DNA of 64,000 nucleotides, from contig NZ_VLPS01000006.1 of NCBI RefSeq assembly GCF_007570865.1, positions 186,001-250,000 on the forward strand, read 5' to 3'. Below, piece after piece: positions 46,356 through 49,226 of the stretch; within the stretch, counting starts at the first letter, position 1; each line of letters starts with the position of its first letter. The notes beneath the pieces are model-generated. The model saw only the letters and a list, made by a program, of their open reading frames with translations. It was not told the origin of the DNA and did not search any database. This DNA comes from Atlantibacter subterraneus (GTDB taxonomy: Bacteria > Pseudomonadota > Gammaproteobacteria > Enterobacterales > Enterobacteriaceae). A program made the translations under genes and the position numbers.

Positions 46356-47735
46356 ATGCGTATTCATATTCTGGGTGTGTGTGGCACCTTTATGGGCGGG
46401 CTGGCGATGCTGGCGCGGGCCCTGGGCCACGAGGTCACCGGCTCGGATGCAAATGTTTACCCGCCGATGAGTACCCTTCTTGAAAAGCAAGGTATTGATT
46501 TAATTCAGGGCTATGACATTGAACAACTCGATCCGCGCCCGGATCTGGTGATCATCGGCAACGCCATGACGCGTGGCAACCCGTGCGTGGAAGCGGTGCT
46601 GGAGCAGAATATCCCTTTCATGTCTGGCCCGCAGTGGCTGCATGATTTCGTGCTGCGCGACCGCTGGGTGATCGCTATTGCGGGAACGCATGGCAAAACC
46701 ACCACGGCAGGCATGGCGACCTGGATCCTTGAAGCCTGCGGCTATAAGCCAGGCTTTGTGATTGGCGGCGTGCCGGGCAATTTCGACGTATCCGCGCGGC
46801 TCGGCGAAAGCCCGTTCTTTGTGATTGAGGCGGATGAGTACGACTGCGCCTTCTTCGACAAACGTTCCAAGTTTGTGCATTACTGCCCGCGCACCCTGGT
46901 GTTGAACAATCTTGAATTTGACCATGCGGATATCTTTGACGATCTGCGGGCTATCCAGAAGCAGTTCCACCACCTGGTGCGCATTGTGCCGGGGCAGGGC
47001 AGGATCATCTGGCCGGAAGGCGATGCCAATCTCAAGCAAACTGTGGCAATGGGCTGCTGGAGCGAGCAGGAGCTGGTGGGCGAGCAGGGCCAGTGGCAGG
47101 CGAAAAAACTCAATGCCGATGCGTCCAACTGGGAAGTGCTGCTGGACGGTGAGCGCGTGGCGGAAGTGAACTGGCAGCTGGTGGGCGAGCACAATATGAA
47201 TAACGGGCTGATGGCGATCGCCGCCGCGCGCCATGTAGGCGTGATGCCTGCCGATGCCGCTCAGGCGCTTAACAGCTTCGTGAACGCCCGCCGCCGGCTT
47301 GAGCTGCGCGGTGAAGCCAACGGCGTAACGGTGTATGACGATTTCGCCCACCACCCGACGGCGATCCTGGCGACCCTCGCGGCGCTGCGCGGTAAAGTCG
47401 GCGGTACGGCGCGTATTCTTGCCGTGCTGGAGCCGCGTTCCAACACCATGAAGATGGGCCACTGTAAGGACGACCTGGCACCCTCGCTGGGCCGCGCCGA
47501 TGAAGTGTTTCTGTTCCAGCCGTCGCATATTCCGTGGCAGGTGTTTGAAGTGGCGGATGCCTGCATTCAGCCCGCGCACTGGAGCGGCGATGTCGACACG
47601 CTGGTGGAGATGATCGTGAAAACCGCTCAGCCGGGCGACCATATCCTGGTGATGAGCAACGGCGGATTCGGCGGCATCCATCAGAAACTGCTGGATGCGT
47701 TGGCGAAAAAGGCGGAGCTGGCTCAGCAGGATTAA
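46356..47735 (+). CDS. mpl: Mpl, UDP-MurNAc:L-alanyl-gamma-D-glutamyl-meso-diaminopimelate ligase
   Basis: A 459-residue Mur-ligase-family enzyme for murein peptide recycling: it joins the recovered tripeptide to UDP-N-acetylmuramic acid. The N-terminal Rossmann domain begins MRIHILGVCGTFMGGLAMLA, the ATP-binding loop is GTHGKTTTAGM (about 110-120), and LEPRSNTMKMG and the C-terminal domain follow. AAGGACAGTAACGT precedes the ATG. In E. coli yjgA follows; here gltD follows after a single terminator, which marks a rearrangement joint. Confidence 0.98.
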   Translation: MRIHILGVCGTFMGGLAMLARALGHEVTGSDANVYPPMSTLLEKQGIDLIQGYDIEQLDPRPDLVIIGNAMTRGNPCVEAVLEQNIPFMSGPQWLHDFVLRDRWVIAIAGTHGKTTTAGMATWILEACGYKPGFVIGGVPGNFDVSARLGESPFFVIEADEYDCAFFDKRSKFVHYCPRTLVLNNLEFDHADIFDDLRAIQKQFHHLVRIVPGQGRIIWPEGDANLKQTVAMGCWSEQELVGEQGQWQAKKLNADASNWEVLLDGERVAEVNWQLVGEHNMNNGLMAIAAARHVGVMPADAAQALNSFVNARRRLELRGEANGVTVYDDFAHHPTAILATLAALRGKVGGTARILAVLEPRSNTMKMGHCKDDLAPSLGRADEVFLFQPSHIPWQVFEVADACIQPAHWSGDVDTLVEMIVKTAQPGDHILVMSNGGFGGIHQKLLDALAKKAELAQQD

Positions 47736-47760
47736 CGTCCAACAGCTAAACCGAAGCCAT

Positions 47761-47797
47761 AAAAAAAGCCCGTCAGCGCTACACTGACGGGCTTTTT
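47761..47797. terminator. Bidirectional terminator between mpl and gltD
   Basis: AAAAAGCCCGTCAG (47763-47776) pairs with CTGACGGGCTTTTT (47784-47797), with a 7-base loop. U-tracts are present in both directions, serving mpl and gltD. This is the only element at the mpl/gltD joint. Confidence 0.92.
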
Positions 47798-47807
47798 ACT
47801 GGCCGAA

Positions 47808-49226
47808 TTACACTTCCAGGTAATTCATAATGCCGTCGGCGGCTTTACGCCCTTCGGCAATTGCCGTTACCACCAAATCGGAGCCGCGCACGATATCGCC
47901 GCCGGCAAAGATTTTCGGGTTGCTGGTCTGGAACGGGTTATCGCTGCGCTCCGGGGCGATGATGCGGCCCTGAGAGTCCAGCTCCACGCTGTGCTGCGCC
48001 AGCCATTCCATGCTGTGCGGACGGAAACCAAACGCCATCACTACCGCATCGGCAGGCAGAACGTGCTCGGAGCCGGCGACGATTTCGGCGCGACGACGGC
48101 CATTGGCATCCGGCGCGCCCATCTCGGTGCGCACCATTTTCACGCCGGAGACTTTACCGTTGGCGTTGATTTCCACGCCCAGCGGCTGCACGTTGAATTT
48201 GAACTCCACCCCTTCTTCACGGGCGTTTTTCACTTCCCGGCGTGAGCCCGGCATGTTCTCTTCGTCACGACGGTAGGCGCAGGTCACGTGGGTCGCGCCC
48301 TGGCGCACGGAGGTACGCACGCAGTCCATCGCGGTATCGCCGCCGCCCAGCACCACCACGCGTTTGCCTTCCATGCTGATATACGGCGATGCCGCATCTT
48401 CGCCAAAGCCCATGGTGTTGCGGGTGTTGGCGATCAGGAACGGCAGCGCGTCGAATACGCCCGGCGCATCTTCATTTTCAATGCCGCCGCGCATCGACTG
48501 ATAGGTACCGACGCCCAGGAACACCGCGTCGTACTCGGCAAGCAGCGCTTCCAACTGCACATCGCGGCCTACTTCGGTGTTGAGCTGGAACTCAATGCCC
48601 ATGCCGGTGAAGATGTCACGACGGCGGGTCATCACTTCTTTTTCCAGTTTGAACGCCGGAATACCAAAGGTCAGCAGACCGCCGATTTCCGGGTGACGGT
48701 CATACACCACCGCTTTGACGCCGTTACGGGTCAGCACGTCGGCACAGGCGAGGCCCGCCGGGCCCGCGCCGATAATCGCCACGCGTTTGCCGGTTTGCTT
48801 CACGCCGGTCATATCCGGACGCCAGCCCATCTCAAACGCCTTATCGTTGATATAGCGCTCGATGTTGCCGATGGTGACCGCGCCGAATTCGTCGTTCAGG
48901 GTGCAGGAGCCTTCACACAGGCGATCCTGCGGGCACACGCGGCCACAGACTTCCGGCAGGGTGTTGGTCTGGTGCGACAGTTCCGCCGCTTCGAAAATAC
49001 GGCCTTCGTTGGCCAGCTTCAGCCAGTTCGGAATGTAGTTATGAACCGGGCATTTCCACTCGCAGTACGGGTTGCCGCAGGAAAGACAGCGGTCCGCCTG
49101 GGCTTTGGCCTGGCTTTCTGAAAACGGCTCGTAGATCTCAACAAACTCAATTTTACGGATTTTGAGTGGCTTCTTCGGCGGATCAACGCGCTGTAAGTCG
49201 ATAAATTGATATACGTTTTGGCTCAT
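47808..49226 (-). CDS. gltD: Glutamate synthase (NADPH) small subunit
   Basis: A 472-residue flavoprotein beginning [20 protein letters not shown]-terminal cysteines for [4Fe-4S] clusters ([29 protein letters not shown]) are followed by FAD-binding ([15 protein letters not shown]) and NADPH-binding ([15 protein letters not shown]) motifs. It passes electrons from NADPH to GltB. The second of two tandem ATGs (49226) fits the AGAGGTC spacing. It follows gltB by 50 bases. No gltF-like gene follows; mpl lies next, at a rearrangement joint. Confidence 0.98.

Follow-up and report, generated by a model that had tools for sequence, protein, structure and literature searches.

Why do mpl and gltD, two genes that in Escherichia coli K-12 lie on opposite replichores, stand end to end in Atlantibacter subterraneus? 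In K-12, mpl occupies 4455785-4457158 and is followed by yjgA, and gltD occupies 3359198-3360616 and is followed by gltF. In the stretch of A. subterraneus DNA analysed here (64,000 nucleotides, hereafter the window), the two genes are convergent neighbours. We report that this joint is almost certainly one end of an inversion of about 1.09 Mb that contained oriC and took place in the common ancestor of the sampled Atlantibacter, and that it was followed by further inversions in the lineage of two sister genomes (G001 and G004) and in G004 itself.

Results

Structure of the mpl-gltD joint

To the left of the joint, the genes ytfP, ppa, ytfQRT, yjfF, fbp and mpl follow the right-replichore order of E. 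coli moving away from oriC, and to the right the genes from gltD to rpoN follow the left-replichore order, also away from oriC (Table 1). Beyond arcB, the order continues with elbB and mtgA on the + strand and then npr, rapZ, ptsN, hpf and rpoN on the - strand. An earlier sequence-only reading had described these two orders correctly from ytfQ on and from gltD on, but the genes at 26 kb, where it let the first order begin, are tamAB, and ytfQ lies at 38.9 kb. Its statement that gene direction relative to replication is kept agrees with our result, as both arms of the window read away from oriC. The GC skew was positive (0.001 to 0.052) in all eight window bins of 8 kb. At the protein level, the Mpl of the window is 98% identical to that of the nearest named mpl locus, Atlantibacter sp. 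RC6.

The hairpin in the spacer has a 14-pair stem on the + strand (z -5.4) and also folds on the - strand (z -5.6). A consensus terminator scan returned no terminator in the mpl-gltD spacer, probably because its rule needs a T run downstream of the stem, whereas in this spacer the T run is base-paired with the A run. Neither Rfam matches nor tRNA genes were found at the joint. The joint described by the sequence-only reading is real, with a single hairpin in its 72 bp. Elsewhere in the window, two chaperone-usher fimbrial clusters were observed at 20362-25335 (-) and 33011-37887 (+), the second of which lies between ytfP and ppa, at the place of chpSB in E. coli K-12.

Table 1. Features around the mpl-gltD joint, in window coordinates.
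Feature	Position	Strand	Remark
ppa	37970-38497	-	
ytfQ-ytfR-ytfT-yjfF	38898..43448	+	right-replichore genes inside the inverted block; 88-95% identity (tblastn with K-12 proteins)
fbp	45183..46181	-	inside the inverted block; 95% identity (tblastn, K-12 protein)
mpl	46356..47735	+	last gene of the inverted block here; 90% to K-12 Mpl (tblastn)
inversion joint	47736..47807	.	72-bp spacer between convergent mpl and gltD
bidirectional terminator-like hairpin	47763..47797	.	assigned to the gltD side; folds on both strands
gltD	47808..49229	-	first gene outside the inverted block; 92% identity (tblastn, K-12 protein)
gltB	49277..53800	-	outside the inverted block; 94% identity (tblastn, K-12 protein)
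yhcC and arcB	54420..57810	+	outside the inverted block; 86-87% identity (tblastn, K-12 proteins)

The reciprocal joint

The reciprocal joint, which the sequence-only reading had proposed to look for, was present. On contig C11 of the window genome, a K-12 DNA query gave a tldE-yjgA match ending at 414686 and an sspB match starting at 414742, and past sspB follow sspA, rpsI, rplM and zapE. The yjgA-sspB joint was present in all five Atlantibacter genomes examined (the window genome and G001-G004); in G001-G004 a single match spanned sspB and yjgA, whereas the two matched separately in all eight other family genomes compared. Both reciprocal joints carry the orientations predicted by one inversion. 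The DNA between gltD and sspB varies among relatives (nearly nothing, dcuD, nan, yhcG or other), and nan is found on contig C8 in the window genome. Because this DNA is variable, the left end of the inversion is better placed between gltD and sspB than between gltD and gltF. The earlier proposal of one inversion with ends at gltD/gltF and mpl/yjgA is therefore retained for the inversion itself and its right end, and corrected for its left end. About 8 kb were also observed between nrdG and tldE on C11 (L019:4488-12691).

Distribution of the joints and direction of change

The mpl-gltD joint was continuous in four of the five Atlantibacter genomes (G000-G003) and absent from G004, and the joint of the window was 90, 96 and 94% identical to those of G001 (on one contig), G002 and G003, respectively. 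In a survey of 295 family genomes, 182 of which gave any match at the cut-off, it was continuous in at least three genomes among the best 150 matches, all three of them Atlantibacter. Among 80 named mpl loci, gltD came next after mpl only in Atlantibacter sp. RC6. The next tested gene was yjgA in 69 loci (48 to 4631 bases past the mpl stop), yhaH in five and ridA in one; in one locus (Salmonella enterica diarizonae), none of the tested genes lay within 10 kb. The remaining three loci (L054, L073, L095) run into a contig end 21 to 1165 bases past mpl, as if a repeat were there. In E. coli, none of 5375 matching genomes had a place covering 80% of the mpl-gltD query, and the idea that misnamed E. 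coli records carry the joint was rejected. The comparison across genera that had been suggested earlier thus places the adjacency in Atlantibacter alone, within the named loci and the best 150 family matches.

Two other candidates for the same event were discarded. In genome G137, mpl and gltD share a strand and are separated by 0.91 Mb, and in genus g74 the distance is about 200 kb (family survey, best 150 matches); both are other rearrangements. The separation in G137 would presumably fit an rRNA-operon inversion.

At gltD, sspB was found on the gltD side in 18 of 19 outgroup flanks and nan-yhcG in the remaining one; these flanks come from family genomes, several in the same genus. Because yjgA follows mpl and sspB flanks gltD in most outgroups, the Atlantibacter order can be regarded as the derived state. 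The earlier suggestion that the joint might be genus-wide fits its counts (yjgA-sspB in 5/5 and mpl-gltD in 4/5 Atlantibacter genomes), and a derived, origin-symmetric inversion shared by the whole genus is supported within our sample.

Extent and origin symmetry

The extent of the inversion could be determined in G001, a complete Atlantibacter genome of 4,553,773 bp with oriC at approximately 4,525.9 kb (interpolated) and dif at 2,384 kb. Its joints are located at 3,968.8 and 506.8 kb, which is 557 and 535 kb from oriC, and oriC lies between them. Since both ends are almost equally far from oriC, gene direction relative to replication and distance from oriC are nearly unchanged in this genome. 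The sampled K-12 stretches from 3.376 to 4.457 Mb were mostly found between the joints of G001, reversed relative to the flanks, and the K-12 markers gltD-rpoN and yjgA-pyrB were found outside the joints in forward orientation. The expected X-type comparison with E. coli was thus obtained as a reversed block around oriC. As interior exceptions to collinearity with K-12, the 4.00 and 4.10 Mb blocks have changed places and 3.672-3.680 Mb is turned, and smaller K-12 pieces (3.660, 3.842, 4.100-4.104 and 4.288 Mb) match elsewhere in G001, some in the opposite direction. The swapped 4.00 and 4.10 Mb blocks, at about 4.27-4.40 Mb of G001, exchange order without turning, for which rRNA-operon recombination would be our guess. 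In the window draft genome, the two joints and oriC are split over three contigs (C12, C11 and C14), and for this reason the linkage of the joints through oriC is shown only in G001.

Later inversions in G001 and G004

A tree of 8 genes (7732 columns, 11 genomes) grouped G001 and G004 as sisters with 97% ultrafast bootstrap, apart from G000, G002 and G003. G004 is a record labelled Citrobacter freundii M-21 (also L023, L024 and L126), which groups with Atlantibacter both by the tree and by its yjgA-sspB joint.

The outer flank of G001 departs from the order left by a single inversion, as it was turned back by a second one. On one arm of G001, yhaK-yqjG-exuT (K-12 3.255 Mb and down) follows 11 kb after tsr (4.593 Mb), and the opposite arm has ettA-slt-arcA (4.629 Mb and up) 16.5 kb before rnpB (3.270). 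The window genome has the old order there, with 12 kb from tsr to the ettA block and 2.2 kb from yhaK to rnpB, and yhaK still adjoins rnpB in G002 and G003. In G001, this inversion ends about 603-614 kb from oriC on one side and 628-644 kb on the other. In G004, mdtM and tsr precede yhaK on one contig, with 19.4 kb from mdtM to yhaK compared with 19.3 kb in G001, and rnpB is on another contig, so that one of the two joints of the second inversion is visible.

G004 carries gltD-mgtA and mpl-ridA joints and retains yjgA-sspB. With yjgA-sspB kept, its two new joints can be derived from the gltD-mpl state by one inversion that re-used this joint. Its net local difference from the E. coli order is a 24-kb block, from yjgA to mgtA, on the other replichore. 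In the window genome and G001, mgtA and ridA have kept their E. coli orientation and adjacency, with 6.1 and 1.2 kb between them, respectively (the former gap is at L139:8084-14227 on C11). Since mgtA-ridA is intact in these genomes and G004 is sister to G001, the inverted state preceded the order of G004. A second inversion shared by G001 and G004 and a third nested in G004 also agree with the 8-gene tree.

Taken together, the history is as follows. In the ancestor of the sampled Atlantibacter, the left replichore was broken between gltD and sspB and the right one between mpl and yjgA, and the ends were rejoined as gltD-mpl and sspB-yjgA; a second origin-centred inversion followed in the lineage of G001 and G004, and a third, in the lineage of G004, re-used the gltD-mpl joint.

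Position of the crossovers and sequences at the joints

In G004, where gltD now borders mgtA, gltD has retained a hairpin like that of the window, likewise preceded by CAT and an A run, and the ridA hairpin is found beside ridA in both G001 and G004. The gltD-side hairpin of the window also resembles one in the sspB-gltD spacer of the outgroup genome G244. Because the hairpins stay with gltD and ridA, both crossovers at the mpl-gltD site would fall within a few tens of bases on the mpl side. The ancestral crossover would be located after the mpl stop and before the gltD-side hairpin, at about 47736-47762.

The inversion may alternatively have arisen by homologous recombination between inverted repeats (REP/BIME, IS, rRNA or similar terminators) that have since been deleted or have decayed, which we consider possible but doubtful. 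Large within-species inversions were found to be flanked by the same repeat at both ends (PMC9584773). REP-like words occur in the mpl-yjgA spacer of many relatives, and a K-12 query with this spacer matched at 36 places in the median E. coli genome (an undercount), indicating that the query holds a dispersed repeat. In addition, the sequence AAAAAAGCCCG of the window gltD-side hairpin recurs in G244, between sspB and gltD, and also between mpl and yjgA in G241 and an Enterobacter, and is rare in window-genome DNA (3 in 247,694 bases). Given the word common to some spacers and the median of 36 places, an eroded repeat could have taken part. On the other hand, no repeat common to both joints was found at the joints themselves in a comparison of the 6 kb around each in the window genome; the longest exact match there was 17 bases (E 0.007), and it lies inside gltB and tldE, away from the joints. 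The two spacers were also compared with each other in five genomes that retain the ancestral order. They have 7-8 bases in common in the crossing orientation and 8-9 in the other, which is not above the level of shuffled sequences; in three of the five, the gltD-side spacer borders yhcG, dcuD or gltF instead of sspB, and the G244 pair is not among them. As a further candidate, we considered that the crossover fell within the A-tract and GCCCG word of the terminators. This reading is weakened by the 7-8-base sharing in the five same-genome pairs and by G004, where the hairpin has remained next to gltD, placing the crossover on the mpl side of the hairpin.

For the ancestral inversion, the likely mechanism would be end-joining or template switching between sister forks, each about 0.55 Mb from the origin, or the joining of two spacers brought together by paired arms. 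No sequence signature of the inversion mechanism was found at the joints. The sites may have been tolerated because they lie between convergent genes.

Other breaks near mpl

The same region is rearranged in other genera. In five Cedecea-kind loci (L039, L051, L038, L063 and L094), which comprise C. davisae, C. neteri and three labelled Enterobacter sp. Ag1, Enterobacter sp. Cy-643 and Enterobacteriaceae bacterium RIT693, mpl is joined to yhaH-yqjG-exuT-uxaC. Descent of this arrangement from the Atlantibacter event was rejected, since gltD-sspB is unbroken, that is, ancestral, in all five genomes, and the mpl break of Cedecea is thus an independent event. In C. davisae (L144), yjgA lies 1.4 kb from an epmA match and, if on the same scaffold, about 100 kb from mpl; by its gene order, the mpl-yhaH joint would need more than one step. 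Superficieibacter (L074 and L084; genus g57, in which the contig positions of yjgA, sspB and gltD in G264 coincide with those in the genome of L074) has a yhcC-ppa joint, and in G186 of this genus, tamB/tamA DNA within 3.3 kb after arcB represents its reciprocal. This pair lies about 633 and 580 kb from oriC, and its inversion is independent of that in Atlantibacter.

It may be asked from these cases whether the mpl 3' spacer is intrinsically fragile or a preferred inversion end. The spacer served as an end in the ancestral inversion, a second time in G004 (mpl-ridA) and independently in part of Cedecea, and in K-12 coordinates each end of the Superficieibacter inversion falls about 8 kb from the corresponding Atlantibacter end. 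However, our search was centred on mpl, so nearby events are over-sampled, and a few inversions per genus, which is a rough guess, would already predict about one event per 20-kb stretch. Cedecea colo (L035) keeps mpl-yjgA. The spacer is stable within E. coli: 5359 of 5375 genomes have an intact mpl-yjgA, counted as a single place that covers 80% of the query. By this measure, the control spacer yjfF-fbp reached 5375/5375 and tldE-nrdG 5261/5375. The lower count for gltD-gltF (1127/5366) probably reflects variable gene content. We consider a special mpl end improbable, and the case for it weak.

It was also considered that the blocks beside gltD and mpl moved independently by transposition, without an inversion through oriC, which is very unlikely. 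Taken alone, G004 does resemble the E. coli order at this place, with its 24-kb block transferred from beside mpl to beside gltD. This explanation is opposed by the existence of both reciprocal joints in the orientations that one inversion requires, by the reversal in G001 of oriC and most markers between the joints as one block, and by the intact mgtA-ridA neighbourhood in the window genome and G001, which places the inverted state before the order of G004. As the sequence-only reading had implied, the positions of the gltD-side genes and yjgA need no transposition, and both joints fit one inversion. An assembly error at 47.74-47.81 kb, which that reading had named as a risk, is practically negligible, as the continuous joint recurs in G001 (a single contig), G002 and G003 at 90-96% with homologous spacers.

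Discussion

Origin-symmetric inversions of bacterial chromosomes, visible as X-plots, were reportedly described by Eisen in 2000 and by Tillier and Collins in 2000. They are common in bacteria (PMC9584773, PMC5850607, PMC2483231). Among the titles and abstract openings returned by a literature search, in which subscription journals were little covered, none concerned the Atlantibacter inversion. The Atlantibacter inversion has the usual features of this class: the segment around oriC is reversed, the ends are nearly equidistant from it, polarity is kept and reciprocal joints are present. It differs from typical cases in that one of its joints was broken again by a later inversion. In addition, no repeat is shared by its two joints, both of which are terminator spacers, in contrast to the repeat-flanked within-species inversions of PMC9584773. 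As the joints are known within tens of bases and share no repeat, the Atlantibacter case bears on the question of whether homologous repeats are needed for such inversions.

Compared with Yersinia (PMC2483231), Atlantibacter similarly shows several origin-centred inversions per lineage, and the re-use of inversion ends was analysed in Yersinia. First, however, Yersinia represents a fast-rearranging population, whereas the events in Atlantibacter separate genomes that are about 90-91% identical over 8 genes. Second, no repeat was found at the inversion ends of Atlantibacter. For practical use, both joints are simple markers for Atlantibacter, and they agree with the gene tree on the placement of strain M-21.

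The history of G004 can also be compared with translocations, whose enrichment near the origin was found, and called surprising, in a recent survey (PMC12863080). G004 shows an apparent translocation of this kind, a 24-kb block moved across replichores with its polarity kept, but the block lies about 0.55 Mb from oriC and not beside it. Because the intermediate survives in sister genomes, the block can be read as the outcome of two overlapping origin-centred inversions, and its intermediate joint is preserved in four of them. We tentatively propose, as a less probable generalization, that overlapping repeat-free origin-centred inversions sharing one end are a general source of translocations near oriC; G004 would then be a worked case, with gltD-mpl as an end that is preferentially re-broken. 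If this is true, a second flip would nearly restore the old order, except that a small block would remain on the opposite replichore, its polarity unchanged. Within this genus alone, the history of G004 provides one possible source of near-origin translocations. In conclusion, the Atlantibacter inversion is a further case of a known type of event, less usual in that its joints share no repeat and in that the intermediate of a later rearrangement survives.
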